From the NCBI GenBank assembly GCA_017554405.1, contig JAFZIK010000063.1, forward strand, positions 1 to 33,872: a stretch of 33,872 bases of DNA, in the 5' to 3' direction. The notes beneath the pieces were generated by a model, which ran no database searches, was not told the origin of the DNA, and saw nothing but the letters and a program-made list of their open reading frames with translations. The position numbers were made by a program, and so were the translations under genes. Below, in pieces: positions 26,821 to 31,440 of the stretch. The DNA comes from Clostridia bacterium. GTDB taxonomy: Bacteria; Bacillota; Clostridia; Oscillospirales; Acutalibacteraceae. Within the stretch, counting starts at the first letter, position 1, and every line of letters begins with the position of its first letter.

Positions 26821-26897
26821 GGCTGTATAGCTCAGTTGGCTAGAGCATTCGGTTCATACCCGGAGTGTCACTGGTTCGAGTCCAGTTACAGCCACCA
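26821..26897 (+). tRNA. tRNA-Met (CAT), elongator
   Basis: A 77-base gene with encoded CCA. The acceptor stem GGCTGTA/TACAGCC is fully paired, the anticodon loop is TTCATAC, and the T arm is ACTGG/CCAGT. The fully paired acceptor end and the TTCGG/CCGGA stem separate it from the initiator at 2659; a lysidine-type tRNA-Ile is less likely from the anticodon arm. Confidence 0.93.
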
Positions 26898-26899
26898 TC

Positions 26900-26975
26900 G
26901 GCCCGGTGGTCAAGTGGCCTAAGACACCGCCCTTTCACGGCGGTAACACGAGTTCGAATCTCGTCCGGGTCACCA
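26900..26975 (+). tRNA. tRNA-Glu (TTC)
   Basis: A 76-base gene with encoded CCA. The acceptor is GGCCCGG/CCGGGTC, the anticodon stem CCGCC/GGCGG around CTTTCAC, and the T arm ACGAG/CTCGT. Two bases separate it from tRNA-Met, so both come from one transcript. Confidence 0.95.
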
Positions 26976-27014: not shown

Positions 27015-27016
27015 CA

Positions 27017-27236
27017 ATGATATCCGTTCCTTGTCGGAACGGGTGATATACCCTGCGGGTATGATATCCGCTAACGCGGATGAAATACTTTATGTATTCC
27101 TCGCCAAAGGCGAGATATACATAAAGCATGAAGGAACGGATATCATATCATATTTGCGTAGGCAAATATATCATGCCGCGTTTACGCGGTATATCATGCG
27201 GCGAAGCCGTATATCATTTCGGAATATTATTTTCAA
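27017..27236. repeat. Mosaic of short hairpins joined by ATATCAT/GATAT
   Basis: At least eight small dyads follow each other, for example CCGTTCC/GGAACGG, ATACCC/GGGTAT, ATCCGC/GCGGAT, CTCGCC/GGCGAG, ATATTTGC/GCAAATAT, CCGCG/CGCGG and CGGC/GCCG, each bounded by ATATCAT or GATAT. A longer inverted repeat, 27017-27032 with 27131-27146 (16 of 16 bases), encloses the first half. It resembles the dispersed hairpin mosaics of clostridial intergenic DNA. The open frame at 27031-27285 is a by-product. I see no gene between 27015 and 27398. Confidence 0.75.
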
Positions 27237-27284: not shown

Positions 27285-27328
27285 AAATGTAAAAAATTTT
27301 TTAAAAAACACTTGACAAGTTTACATTT
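27285..27328. promoter_or_regulatory. Possible operator for the HTH-dynamin operon
   Basis: AAATGTAAA (27285-27293) and TTTACATTT (27320-27328) form a perfect 9-bp inverted repeat that flanks the -35 element, and the -35 itself sits in the dyad ACTTG-A-CAAGT (27310-27320). Such symmetry fits a dimeric HTH regulator, perhaps the fusion protein itself; this is inferred. Confidence 0.45.
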
Positions 27329-27340
27329 GTGTGTTATAAT
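27312..27340 (+). promoter_or_regulatory. Consensus promoter of the HTH-dynamin operon
   Basis: Perfect TTGACA (27312-27317) and perfect TATAAT (27335-27340) with a 17-base spacer, about 60 bases before the small gene. Confidence 0.88.
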
Positions 27341-27398
27341 TATCCCGCAAGCAGGGGAGGGACCTGAAAAAAGAATCCGGAGGATAGTGAAAACTGTG

Positions 27399-27578
27399 AT
27401 GGACTTTAATACTGATACTTTCTGCAAAAGCGAATTTGGAGAAAAATATCTGAAGGTGGTGAAAACTATGATGAACTTTGATCTTCATTCTATCTACGAA
27501 AGCGGATTTGGCGAAGAATATGAGAGGCAGATGGAAGCAGAGGAAGAAAACGGCCTCGATTACGACGACTACGTATAA
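27399..27578 (+). CDS. Small acidic protein with an internal duplication
   Basis: A 59-residue product I do not recognise, first in the operon with the HTH-dynamin gene (24-base gap). It contains two related units: MDFNTDTFCKSEFGEKYLK and MNFDLHSIYESGFGEEYERQ, each preceded by Val-Lys-Thr when read from the upstream GTG 27387. The C-terminus is strongly acidic (MEAEEENGLDYDDYV). The start is ambiguous: GGAGG at 27379-27383 is 3 bases from GTG 27387 and 15 from ATG 27399, and a second ribosome-site-like GAAGGTGGTG precedes ATG 27468. The duplication is 72 bases long and covers the start region itself. It could be a partner or regulator of the GTPase; this is inference. Confidence 0.6.
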   Translation: MDFNTDTFCKSEFGEKYLKVVKTMMNFDLHSIYESGFGEEYERQMEAEEENGLDYDDYV

Positions 27579-27602
27579 ATTCGACTTTGGAGGTTTATTT
27601 AT

Positions 27603-29861
27603 ATGAACGATTTTAATCCCGTTAAAAAAACGTTGGAGATTATAGGAACAACAAAGGAAAAGCTTGCAAAAGCATTGGGTATTACCCGTCAGACGCTTGA
27701 CAACTATGAAAAAGACCCGTCAAAAATACCGTATTCCGTTATAATGATAATGACAGAGCTTACGGGATGCTCGCCGGAGGTGCTTATGGGCGGCGGGGCG
27801 AAAAGTCCGCAAGGTCCGTCGCCCACGGAGTATCATTCAAAAGCGACCGCAACAGGCAACGCTATTTGCGCCGGATTGGCAACGCTTAATGATTCTCTTG
27901 ACCGAATCGACGGAGCCGACGATAAAATATTTACCGCGGAACGCACCGCCGCAAAAGAGGAGATCGCAAATCTGATCTATGCGATCAAAAAATCGAATAA
28001 TAAGCCGGTCGTGTGTTGCTTCGGTGAAAGCGATTCCGGAAAATCCTCTTTGCTGAATTTCCTTATCGGAGAAAAAATAATCCCCGCCCGTTACTGTCCC
28101 GTGACTTCGGTGCCTACGGTTATACATCATATTGAGGATAAGCCGGATTATCTTGCGGCTGCCGAAGACAGCATCGTTTTCGGCAGGAAACTTAACAAAA
28201 ACAGGCGGCCTGACGCCGAAGAGCCGTTTACTCATCTGAAATATGATATTTCGAAATATCAAGACGTAAAGGATCATATTATCCGTGAAGGTGATCATGA
28301 ATCGATATTGAAGGCGTATGCAACGAGGGACGGGGCATATTACAATAACGCCGATTTTAATTACATTATCGACGAGGTGCACATTTACTTAAACAACGAG
28401 ATCCTTAAGGAAATAACCCTTGTAGATATTCCGGGATTCAATACGGGCGTAGAATCGGACGACGTAGGGCTTACAATGAATATGTCGGCGTTTGATATAG
28501 TGCTTTATTTAAGCCCGGCAATTTCGTTTATGCGTCCGGAGGATATAGCCGCTCTGCAGCAGATCCTGCGTGCCAAAAGCCCCGTCGGCGCCAACGGCGA
28601 AGAAATAATACCCGTATTCGTTCTTGCAACACACGCAAATGCCGTAGGCGATCCCGAAGAGATCCGCGGGATATGCGAAAACGGTTATAACAGAGTTGTT
28701 GAAGGGATGTCCGATACCGATAAGCAACGCCTTATGATAGGCGAAGACGGCAGTATCCTGCGTGACTGTTTTATCGGAATGGATATATTCAATAAAAAAC
28801 TGACCGAAGGTTTTAACGATAAATTCATAAAATGTCTTGAAGCCGTTAGGGAGTATAAAAACGCCTGTTTTAAAAAGCATTTTCACGGGGTATTTGAAGC
28901 TTTGCGCGAAAAATACCAAAGCAAGGCGGATAATATCGAGGGTCCTATTACCAAAGAAGAACACGATGAATCGATCAAAACGCTTGAGAAAAAGCATAAA
29001 CAGATGAAAAAGGAAGTCGAGTCAAAAATAGACTCGCTGCGCGACAAAAATTGCAAACTATACGAGGAAGAGTGCGAGAAAATACTGGATGTTGACAACC
29101 TTCTTAAACTCATCGATAAAAAGGGAATTAAAAACAATAAAAAAGACCGGCAGGATTTTGCAAATTATATCAACAACAGAATCAATAATGTTCTGACCGG
29201 GGTTTTGGAGTTTTCGAGCAAAGAATTCAACGAAACGCTGGATACCGAGTTGGCTTCCATCAAAAAGGCGGATAACATCGCCGGATTTAACGTGAGCATG
29301 GCTTCGTTTGATGCAAGATCCGTATTCGTTTCTGGGCTTACCGGTGTTTCGACCTTCGGCGCGCTTGCGGCGTGGTCATCGGCGGTGGCGGCAGGAAGCA
29401 ATTTAGGCGGCTATATACTTTTGGCAAAAGTTGTTTCCGCGCTTTCTTCAATAGGGATCTCTCTTGGCGGAACAGCCACCGTTGCAACCGCTATTTCCGC
29501 GATCGGCGGTCCGGTCACGTTGGGAATAGGTCTTTCGGTGATCACCGCAGTTTCGGCATTCGGCATAATGGGCGGGACGTGGAAAAAGAGTTTTGCCAAG
29601 AAACTAAACGAAGCCTTCTCAAAAAATGATGTTATCGGGAAAGGCAAAGAATGTATTGAAAAATACTGGTCCGATACCAGGCAGGCTTATGAGCGCTGTG
29701 AGGCTCAACTCTTTAAAGCGGCAATCGAGTTCATAAATGCAAAATATGAGCAATCGGAACTTAACGGTGAAAATGCCGTAAAGCTTAACATTCTGCTGAA
29801 AATGATGTATGGCACGCTTAATAATTATTATGCCGACAGCGCCGATAAACTTATGCGGTAG
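27603..29861 (+). CDS. HTH domain fused to a dynamin-like GTPase with membrane segment
   Basis: The 752-residue protein joins an N-terminal XRE/Cro-like HTH (residues 6-60, containing KLAKALGITRQTLDNYEKDP) to a large GTPase. P-loop GESDSGKS is at 141-148, the G2 region CPVTSVPTVI at 165-174, G3 DIPG at 275-278, and the G4 region is the atypical ATHAN (342-346). A charged helical or coiled-coil stalk covers about 445-500, a Gly/Ala-rich hydrophobic stretch about 575-658 probably enters or crosses the membrane, and a helical tail returns after it. This matches bacterial dynamin-like proteins, which remodel membranes and in some cases protect against phage lysis. The HTH fusion is unusual. ATG 27603 follows GGAGG by 10 bases. 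Confidence 0.82.
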   Translation: MNDFNPVKKTLEIIGTTKEKLAKALGITRQTLDNYEKDPSKIPYSVIMIMTELTGCSPEVLMGGGAKSPQGPSPTEYHSKATATGNAICAGLATLNDSLDRIDGADDKIFTAERTAAKEEIANLIYAIKKSNNKPVVCCFGESDSGKSSLLNFLIGEKIIPARYCPVTSVPTVIHHIEDKPDYLAAAEDSIVFGRKLNKNRRPDAEEPFTHLKYDISKYQDVKDHIIREGDHESILKAYATRDGAYYNNADFNYIIDEVHIYLNNEILKEITLVDIPGFNTGVESDDVGLTMNMSAFDIVLYLSPAISFMRPEDIAALQQILRAKSPVGANGEEIIPVFVLATHANAVGDPEEIRGICENGYNRVVEGMSDTDKQRLMIGEDGSILRDCFIGMDIFNKKLTEGFNDKFIKCLEAVREYKNACFKKHFHGVFEALREKYQSKADNIEGPITKEEHDESIKTLEKKHKQMKKEVESKIDSLRDKNCKLYEEECEKILDVDNLLKLIDKKGIKNNKKDRQDFANYINNRINNVLTGVLEFSSKEFNETLDTELASIKKADNIAGFNVSMASFDARSVFVSGLTGVSTFGALAAWSSAVAAGSNLGGYILLAKVVSALSSIGISLGGTATVATAISAIGGPVTLGIGLSVITAVSAFGIMGGTWKKSFAKKLNEAFSKNDVIGKGKECIEKYWSDTRQAYERCEAQLFKAAIEFINAKYEQSELNGENAVKLNILLKMMYGTLNNYYADSADKLMR

Positions 29862-30020: not shown

Positions 30021-30446
30021 TTATTGATCTTTTGCTTTTTCGCTTTTCATAACGTCGATCGCGCGCATAAGCGGCGCCGGGAGAGGCACCCCCATAAGCG
30101 CGGCGTTCTCGGTTATGCTTATCGCCTCATTGGTAATAAAGGCGATGATCACCCCGTTGGCGACAAAATCAAGTCCCGTTACCATATCGAGGCGGAAGGA
30201 AAGAAGCACGATTATCAACATTATGCCTTTGCGGACTATCCCTTTGAATCCTGCGTAGGACTGAAGCGCGCCGTTTTCGCTCTTGGGGCTTTTTTTGAAG
30301 ACCCCGGCAAGCAGAAGCCCGCTTATGTAGTCCGCCGCCATGAATATTAAAAGCGTTGTCATAGCGCCGTTCCAGCCGCCCGTTATTTTAACTATCAGTG
30401 CGCCCGCCGTTCCCGCGGCGGCGCTTAATATATCTTTAAACCTCAT
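30021..30446 (-). CDS. Phage-type holin (toxin-secretion/lysis holin family)
   Basis: A 141-residue membrane protein of the phage holin family found in clostridial phages and toxin loci (TIGR01593, TcdE-like). It has three or four membrane segments, with the family's ADYISGLLLAGVFKKSPKSE and FKGIVRKGIMLIIVLLSFRL segments and a charged C-terminus. Holins form membrane lesions that release the partner endolysin. GGAG lies 8 bases before ATG 30446. The gene is 13 bases downstream of an amidase gene, a classic lysis pair, but no other phage gene is nearby. Confidence 0.88.
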   Translation of the reverse strand: MRFKDILSAAAGTAGALIVKITGGWNGAMTTLLIFMAADYISGLLLAGVFKKSPKSENGALQSYAGFKGIVRKGIMLIIVLLSFRLDMVTGLDFVANGVIIAFITNEAISITENAALMGVPLPAPLMRAIDVMKSEKAKDQ

Positions 30447-30459
30447 AATTTTTTCTCCG

Positions 30460-31440
30460 TTATTTAAAGTATACGCGAATGGCGTCTATCTCATTGCCGA
30501 AGTTTCCCGCGTAGCCGTTCCTGCTATCGGAAGTATTATAACCGGTTACCGTCGGCAGCCACCTGCCGCTTTTCTTTTCGTGCGCTTCGTAACAAAGCGT
30601 TTTTCCGGTATCGGTATAAAACGCTACGGCGTCTATCGGTTGATTGTAGTTGCCGGCGTAGTCCTCACGGTTTTTAACCTCGGGCAGCCAGCGCGCCTTT
30701 TGCGTTTTGGTGCCCTTTATATGCACCTTATAATATATGTTGCCGCGCGTAAGATTTGCGCGAACGCAGCATATCGCGTTTTTAAAATTGCCCGCGTGAT
30801 CCTTTTTGCCCTCAACGTCCGGCAGCCACCGCGCCTTTACGTCCTCCCAGACCTGGTATATTACCTCTAACGGTTCGCTTTCTTTCTTTTTAAGCTCTAA
30901 AAACTCAATAAGTCCTTCGGCAACGGCGCGGGCGTAGCCGCGTTTGCCGATATTTGAGGTAATGATCTTATAATCAAAGGTGCCGTCCATAAACCCGCCC
31001 TCGCAGAGCACGGCGGGTATTTTGTTCTGATTGATTATCTGAAAATTAGCGCGCTTTATGCCCCTGCCCTTAAGACCGGTATACATAACAAGACGATCGT
31101 AAATATCCTTTGCCAGGCGTTCATCCGCCGCGGTGGGGGACCGGTCGGTGTAAACCTCAACGCCGGTGGCGCTGTTCCAGGAGCCGGTGTATGCGTTGTG
31201 GTGGATCGATACGAACGCCGATACCCCCGCGTTAATATAGCGATCAACACGCTGTGAAAGCGGCTCGTCGGTATAACCCTCGTCTTTATCGGTGCGGATT
31301 ATCTCGCAATCGTAACTGCTTAAAATATCTGTTATGATATCGCATACGTCGTCGTTTAAGGACCACTCCTTTATGCCGTCCGGCGTTTGTTTGCCGGCGG
31401 TATAAAGCCCGTGACCGGCGTCAAGCCCTATTTTTTTCAT
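30460..31440 (-). CDS. N-acetylmuramoyl-L-alanine amidase with three C-terminal repeats
   Basis: The 326-residue endolysin-like enzyme begins directly with an Amidase_3 domain (residues 1-182) and has no signal peptide, as expected if it depends on a holin. Zinc and catalytic residues are visible: H10 in LDAGHG, E25, H80 or H81 in SIHHNA, and E147 in LCEGGFMD. Residues 197-326 contain three related units, each with an RWLP-x-V segment followed by AGN(F/Y) and an Ile-(Asp)-Ala stretch, probably a wall-binding module. A strong GGGAGGGC ribosome binding site precedes ATG 31440. It is cotranscribed with the holin gene. Confidence 0.9.
   Translation of the reverse strand: MKKIGLDAGHGLYTAGKQTPDGIKEWSLNDDVCDIITDILSSYDCEIIRTDKDEGYTDEPLSQRVDRYINAGVSAFVSIHHNAYTGSWNSATGVEVYTDRSPTAADERLAKDIYDRLVMYTGLKGRGIKRANFQIINQNKIPAVLCEGGFMDGTFDYKIITSNIGKRGYARAVAEGLIEFLELKKKESEPLEVIYQVWEDVKARWLPDVEGKKDHAGNFKNAICCVRANLTRGNIYYKVHIKGTKTQKARWLPEVKNREDYAGNYNQPIDAVAFYTDTGKTLCYEAHEKKSGRWLPTVTGYNTSDSRNGYAGNFGNEIDAIRVYFK

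Follow-up and report, generated by a model that had tools for sequence, protein, structure and literature searches.

Results

An HTH-dynamin gene behind a consensus promoter

The DNA analysed here, a stretch of 33.9 kb (the window), is one contig of a 1.67-Mb Clostridia genome assembled in 71 contigs. On its forward strand lies an open reading frame (ORF) of 752 aa (27603..29861), preceded by the Shine-Dalgarno sequence GGAGG (27589-27593). As the original prediction from the letters had it, this ORF joins a helix-turn-helix (HTH) to a dynamin-like GTPase with a membrane stretch. HTH_3 was matched at residues 14-61 (27642..27785; 30.8 bits against a cut-off of 23, E 3e-7), identifying a Cro/C1-type HTH with the recognition-helix region ITRQTLDNYEKDP, and the HTH also matches phage transcriptional regulators in PHROGs. 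Dynamin_N was found as a single stretch over residues 137-325 (28011..28577; 63.7 bits against a cut-off of 27, E 2.7e-17), with the P-loop GESDSGKS at 141-148 and DIPG at 275-278. The dynamin G4 motif is [NT]KxD; at the expected position LATHAN or ASQAHT is seen, an assignment made by eye in the ten-row alignment. By hydropathy, residues ~573-660 (29319..29582) form a hydrophobic, Gly-rich, paddle-like region with the core NLGGYIL.

A sigma-A type promoter precedes the gene on the same strand (27312..27340). It agrees with the consensus at 12 of 12 positions, with TTGACA at 27312-27317, a 17-nt spacer and TATAAT at 27335-27340, and has TG before the -10 element. When the promoter region was shuffled, this score was never reached (0/500), and the consensus promoter claimed earlier is confirmed. 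Overlapping it is an inverted repeat, AAATGTAAA-N26-TTTACATTT (27285..27328), considered here as a candidate operator. Its arms, AAATGTAAA at 27285-27293 and TTTACATTT at 27320-27328, pair perfectly (9/9) across a 26-nt spacer (shuffle p = 0.035, 200 shuffles of 120 nt). The repeat is thus as perfect as first described, but it does not strictly flank the promoter: the left arm is upstream of the -35 element and the right arm lies inside the promoter spacer. The pattern ATGTAA-N18-36-TTACAT occurs once in the whole window, with 0.04 occurrences expected.

The same domain order in ten loci

Protein and profile searches retrieved the same HTH-then-dynamin order in nine further aligned loci. These are G021 (from the window's family), G474, G504, G1243 (from the window's class), the Carboxydocella plasmid pCCELLA01, a Lactococcus plasmid, an L. 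plantarum plasmid, the Acinetobacter plasmid pMsp11 and a P2-like Vibrio phage; they comprise genomes of the window's phylum, four plasmids and a phage. A second Lactococcus copy, pDRC3A, pIL7, three further Lactococcus records, one L. plantarum record, three Vibrio phages and an IMG/VR copy were set aside as near-duplicates. The nine relatives are 21-28% identical to the window protein; P-loop, DxPG and paddle core NLGxY do not vary among the ten. Residues G141, G146, K147, T168, D275, P277 and G278 of the GTPase domain, and N600, L601, G602, Y604, G635, G636 and P637 around the paddle core, are kept in 10/10 aligned sequences. In the first alignment Dynamin_N was matched in 7/7 and HTH_3 in 6/7 members. 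Pfam scans of the ten-row set covered all members except G474 and G504, and in G1243 both domains were matched. The Acinetobacter and G1243 ORFs end before the C-terminal helices.

In a seven-member profile, positions 5-72 matched HTH regulators such as C.BclI and HipB, and positions 73-302 matched Nostoc BDLP1 (PDB 2j68; E 1.4e-11); the top hits of the profile were short P-loop matches such as GTPase Der. Because regulators are matched over the one part and BDLP1 over the other, the HTH looks like an added module, separate from the dynamin bundle. The possibility that the segment folds within the GTPase bundle, raised with the original prediction, is opposed by the regulator-like module seen by the profile; for the window protein the first 65 residues alone gave no solved-structure match at E 0.01.

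The gene is rare. It was found in at least 1/70 genomes of the genus, 2/200 of the family, 2/295 of the order, 2/381 of the class and 4/398 of the phylum, and in at least 1/82, 1/3 and 1/4 genomes of the classes of G474, G504 and G522. These counts are lower bounds, the large profile searches having scored only the best 2-15 candidates per genome, and come from overlapping genome sets, each of which contains its own query or centre genome. The window genome holds a single dynamin gene. Among 50,697 phage records there were 4 matches, all Vibrio and with an identical protein, and among 72,556 plasmid records 10 matches, all 10 on plasmids predicted to be mobilizable. With the window protein alone as query, no match was obtained in the viral or genome contig collections. 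The three-row alignment A2 retrieved only Carboxydocella and G021 from the genome contigs and nothing from the viral contigs, and alignment A1 gave one viral-contig match, the Vibrio element.

The order from EF-G to tRNA-Glu is kept in six of the ten genus genomes inspected, and the other four are without the tRNA pair at this place. Past tRNA-Glu, different genes are found in G066, G875 and G874, and the contig ends within ~400 nt in G912, G883 and G917. The dynamin gene looks acquired, given its patchy distribution and the differing gene content past tRNA-Glu in relatives.

Promoter motifs shared by the homologs

In four of the ten loci (G504, Carboxydocella, G1243 and Acinetobacter) a palindrome, TATGC-N6/7-GCATA, begins 88-98 nt before the start codon, and only 3 further places in 326 kb of loci carry it. 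When half-sites with at least two G/C were considered, 0/400 shuffled sets shared one in more than two regions. The proteins of G504, Carboxydocella and G1243 have the recognition helix RQDxxSRLE (the RQD group; 48-57% mutual identity). That of G474, which is 56%, 55% and 47% identical to those of G504, G1243 and Carboxydocella respectively, has the helix EPLEKISRIE, and no TATGC palindrome is found there. The Acinetobacter palindrome (L007 2089-2105) is situated between the dynamin gene and a divergent DUF4258-JukA pair.

The window and G021 share a different motif at the promoter, ATGTAA-N28/N26-TTACAT. The N26 form over the G021 promoter was present in 8/3000 shuffles of that region. In the Vibrio phage the promoter stands between two copies of AGACA-N4-TGTCT, the only ones in 13.8 kb, and any such palindrome appeared twice in 9/5000 shuffles. 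Conservation of the window's inverted repeat is thus partial: the core ATGTAA/TTACAT recurs in G021, while other homologs carry other motifs or none. These results suggest autoregulation, which gains support from promoter motifs that are shared and, in one group, appear to track the recognition helix. From such placements we infer DNA binding and, from the position of the candidate operator, repression; activation is conceivable too.

Genomic neighbours of the HTH-dynamin genes

A defence context was recognised in four of the ten loci. JukA adjoins the HTH-dynamin gene in Acinetobacter (PADLOC E 7e-71), and in G1243 a JukA-like ORF and GmrSD lie at distances of 2.8 kb and 4.6 kb. In Lactococcus, PDC-M09A (E 4e-107) and PDC-M09B (E 6e-170) are located between two HTH-dynamin genes. 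In the Vibrio phage the gene has late control gene B on one side and the portal gene on the other; P2-like phages have a defence hotspot near this position. Five other P2-like Vibrio phages (L089-L093) hold different cargo in this variable slot before the portal. The N-terminal part of one sister-phage cargo protein resembles endonuclease effectors (E 5e-20), an Llp-like lipoprotein is present according to the record note, and none of the ten cargo proteins scanned matched Pfam.

Downstream of the HTH-dynamin, G474 and G504 have two genes in common (46% and 58% identical); the two genomes come from different families. The conserved three-gene block (L019 6419-10735; L020 2774-7084) consists of the HTH-dynamin, a 278-279-aa protein and a 397-398-aa protein that has a Tox-GHH nuclease domain and looks hydrophobic towards its C-terminus; the block is a candidate defence operon. 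In Carboxydocella an ArdC antirestriction gene adjoins the HTH-dynamin; ArdC aside, nothing was recognised in the other four loci among the neighbours scanned or annotated.

The JukA-like genes of the Acinetobacter plasmid (L007 1030-2040) and of G1243 (L095 9906-10628) are 59% identical. JukA follows an HTH regulator in two of three other plasmids inspected, both from Escherichia. A weak tblastn match of JukA within the L. plantarum dynamin (L006 7570-7935; 29%, E 4e-4) is probably hydrophobic paddle-like sequence, and in the window JukA had no tblastn match.

The small acidic ORF and other features of the locus

Between the promoter and the dynamin gene lies a putative coding ORF of 63 aa (27387..27578, forward strand; pI 4.2, charge -10), running from GTG at 27387 to a stop that ends at 27578 and separated from the dynamin ORF by 24 nt. 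Its start is ambiguous: GGAGG at 27379-27383 is followed by GTG 27387, GTG 27396 and ATG 27399. The ORF is built on a 72-nt tandem duplication (27387-27458 and 27459-27530) with 54/72 nt identical. Differences between the copies fall 11/6/1 on codon positions 1/2/3 of the acidic frame, which is the opposite of purifying selection on that frame. When the copies were compared by BLOSUM, the acidic frame scored 50/128, the other forward frames 57/97 and 67/119, and the reverse frames 71/126, 27/112 and 40/119. The acidic frame is therefore not the best-kept frame of the duplication. An alternative gene was considered; because both other forward frames contain stops, none is claimed. The duplication also brings to mind a toxin-antitoxin RNA of the tandem-repeat type.

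Relatives of the small ORF were seen neither in 148 other genomes nor in the phage records, the plasmid records or the other HTH-dynamin loci, and it had no match in Pfam, NCBIfam or PADLOC; the searches of these three collections and of the 148 genomes used a start one codon inside. The similarity of the small protein to PDC-M09A is at chance level (E 0.05). Short proteins are easily missed by searches, and these negatives are no proof. The tiny acidic protein of the original prediction thus exists as an ORF, while its role in the system lacks support, given the absence of relatives and the contrary repeat divergence; the expectation that it always adjoins the dynamin gene failed, as similarity search finds it in 1/10 loci. 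The ORF may be a leader.

No Rfam entry was matched up to E 1 in the promoter-to-dynamin interval, and a structured leader or riboswitch was rejected on this result and on a folding of the leader no better than that of shuffles (z -0.24). Genes for tRNA-Met and tRNA-Glu (26821-26975) precede a repeat-rich stretch, after which the promoter follows. Within an array of ATATCAT-linked short hairpins in this stretch, the Rfam Gut-1 RNA is matched at 27015-27230 (58 bits, cut-off 50). A similar hairpin stretch, inverted, adjoins tRNA-Glu in G066 (L076 8795-9014), where no Gut-1 match reaches the cut-off. Gut-1 may be a dispersed palindromic repeat.

Downstream of the dynamin gene, a holin and an amidase are encoded on the opposite strand; this holin and Amidase_3 pair (30021-31440) adjoins RNase Y. 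That the dynamin is part of a prophage together with these genes was considered and rejected, the amidase being present in 18/61 genomes of the genus against 1/70 for the dynamin. In the four closest relatives the amidase is on a different contig from EF-G.

Discussion

A proposed autoregulated dynamin effector

The HTH-dynamin of the window is tentatively interpreted as an autoregulated dynamin effector that is accessory, was acquired horizontally and most likely acts in anti-phage defence; to this interpretation we assign a little less than an even chance. The domain order, its conservation in ten loci, the shared promoter motifs and the mobile and partly defence-linked contexts are observed. 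The N-terminal Cro/C1 HTH would bind the inverted-repeat operator at its own promoter and keep expression low, and the C-terminal dynamin would bind the membrane and deform or seal it with GTP, giving protection from phage. Infection or envelope damage would pull the protein into membrane assemblies, so that less of it is free to occupy the operator and expression rises; membrane titration would then be the switch, and this release of the promoter by assembly is advanced as a hypothesis. The effector half is plausible because B. subtilis DynA gathers into membrane clusters in infected cells and delays phage lysis, for which it requires its GTPase lysines (PMC8844932). This interpretation does without the small acidic ORF.

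A bolder form, which we regard as rather unlikely, is a one-protein immune circuit, in which a single polypeptide acts as repressor, sensor and membrane effector. By assembling on membrane that is damaged by phage or derived from it, the HTH-dynamin would come off the DNA and free its own promoter and, in Acinetobacter, the divergent JukA promoter as well. JukA would supply target recognition in some lineages, with a GHH-nuclease membrane protein or PDC-M09AB as partner in others.

Several observations weigh against an autoregulated defence effector. The best inverted repeat reached p <= 0.05 against shuffles in 4/9 dynamin upstream regions, and 19/56 control upstream regions reached it too; inverted repeats are therefore unenriched, this result means little alone, and the argument from bare repeats was dropped in favour of motif sharing. 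The 56 controls include the hairpin-rich region before the window's small-ORF frame and a few L004/L005 near-duplicates. The proposal that the protein binds its own operator thus stands on the promoter-linked motifs and their apparent tracking of the helix in one group, and not on the repeats as such. Visual inspection brought up the TATGC motif before the G/C limit was chosen; with the limit removed, 9/400 shuffled sets share a half-site in four regions. Upstream of G474 neither a promoter-like nor an operator-like site was found. With its arms 35 bp apart, the window repeat differs from the palindrome of the RQD group, which is compact. In the 667 kb of loci, which overlap in part, ATGTAA-N18-36-TTACAT has 4 unrelated occurrences, one of them within the L. 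plantarum dynamin gene. Similarity of whole upstream regions among homologs was rejected, since 4/36 pairs at p < 0.06 (G1243 not included) is about chance.

As for defence, no recognised defence neighbour is present at the window locus, and the phage-defence switch first proposed draws its support from the four other loci. JukA is common in Gram-negative bacteria, according to a review (PMC13282480). The PADLOC scans covered chosen neighbours, the counts of defence neighbours have no chance control, and 9/10 sister-phage cargo proteins scanned were without a PADLOC match. The missing neighbour control and the unrestricted null of the TATGC half-sites have slightly lowered our confidence.

Alternative explanations

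An autoregulated HTH-dynamin could instead serve general envelope protection or the upkeep of mobile elements. In agreement with this, every plasmid record with a relative is predicted to be mobilizable, the window locus shows no defence neighbour, and DynA also takes part in membrane surveillance against antibiotics (PMC8844932). The phage cargo slot speaks against this alternative, as do the neighbouring JukA-like, PDC-M09 and GmrSD genes, and we consider it unlikely. An HTH that has lost DNA binding and mediates protein contacts, with a window repeat due to chance, would fit the p of only 0.035, the frequency of inverted repeats in control regions and the missing structure match of the window HTH alone. 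The recurrence of the window-defined motif over the G021 promoter and the association of palindrome with helix in the RQD group make this improbable.

Nor does it seem at all probable that the HTH is a DNA tether, binding foreign DNA that the dynamin then holds or walls off at the membrane, with the promoter palindromes as a by-product. Such a role is compatible with G474, which is without a promoter-like or operator-like site, and with a regulatory effect of the HTH that is deduced from sequence; the TATGC palindromes, however, sit ahead of the HTH-dynamin genes, with few copies in the rest of the loci. The least credible alternative is a pair resembling toxin and antitoxin, in which the acidic protein restrains a toxic dynamin. 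The small ORF is directly upstream, with a Shine-Dalgarno sequence and a 24-nt gap, but no relatives of it were met in the 148 other genomes, phages, plasmids and other loci searched, its repeat divergence is contrary to selection on the acidic frame, and its occurrence in 1/10 loci is not that of a conserved adjacent antitoxin gene.

If the autoregulated effector is the correct interpretation, a dynamin equipped with a DNA-binding head would make its own expression depend directly on the protein's state. Autoregulation can be tested directly through the recognition helix and the matched palindromes, and candidate partners are suggested by the JukA-like, PDC-M09 and GHH-nuclease genes nearby.

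Comparison with known systems

The claim that no system of this architecture has been described stands uncontradicted in the open-access literature searched, and no description of the control logic of an HTH-dynamin was found there. The window protein is dynamin-like by Dynamin_N, P-loop and DxPG, and its HTH domain is of the Cro/C1 (XRE) kind, HTH_3 being above the family cut-off. The closest HTH kinds by profile are C.BclI among solved structures and CapH of CBASS; in PADLOC, capH was matched in 5/10 members and Control_protein in 4/10. C proteins of restriction-modification and CapH autoregulate defence operons. C.BclI-type controllers and CapH are free small regulators, whereas the window HTH is fused to a dynamin.

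Nostoc BDLP1 (2j68), which is not known to have such an HTH, aligns with the family profile over 73-302, and this match starts behind the HTH of the window family. LeoA/LeoBC (the Eleos system) are likewise bacterial dynamins, with a Gly-rich paddle to which the paddle-like region of the window protein may correspond. At E <= 0.01 the LeoBC model matches 10/10 members and the LeoA model 7/10. For the window protein these matches are weak and partial (~26 bits, over residues 432-650 and 455-697 only), not full-length, and its genome has a single dynamin gene in place of tandem genes. A defence island described in Pseudolactococcus laudensis includes LeoABC (PMC13335696). LeoA starts with neck helices (PMC4159319), whereas the window protein has the Cro/C1 HTH before its putative ones. 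The LeoA paper terms the neck hairpin of BDLP1/LeoA a helix-turn-helix motif (PMC4159319). Judged from the alignment, the Cro/C1 HTH differs from that hairpin, because it precedes the part aligning to BDLP1.

The window protein has one GTPase module and an HTH, as against the two fused GTPase modules of DynA, and the NCBIfam DynA model gives 16 bits with a cut-off of 1600. The likeness lies in a dynamin tied to phage resistance and membrane stress; the DynA paper names lysines K56 and K625 and terms the mode of action passive (PMC8844932). As regards Juk, a JukA-like gene is near two HTH-dynamin loci, Acinetobacter and G1243, and none was matched by tblastn in the window. JukA works with diverse effectors, including transcriptional regulators, according to the review (PMC13282480). 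Thus, by the tests made, the window protein is a bacterial dynamin of a new type, and its locus is not a LeoA/LeoBC, DynA or Juk locus.

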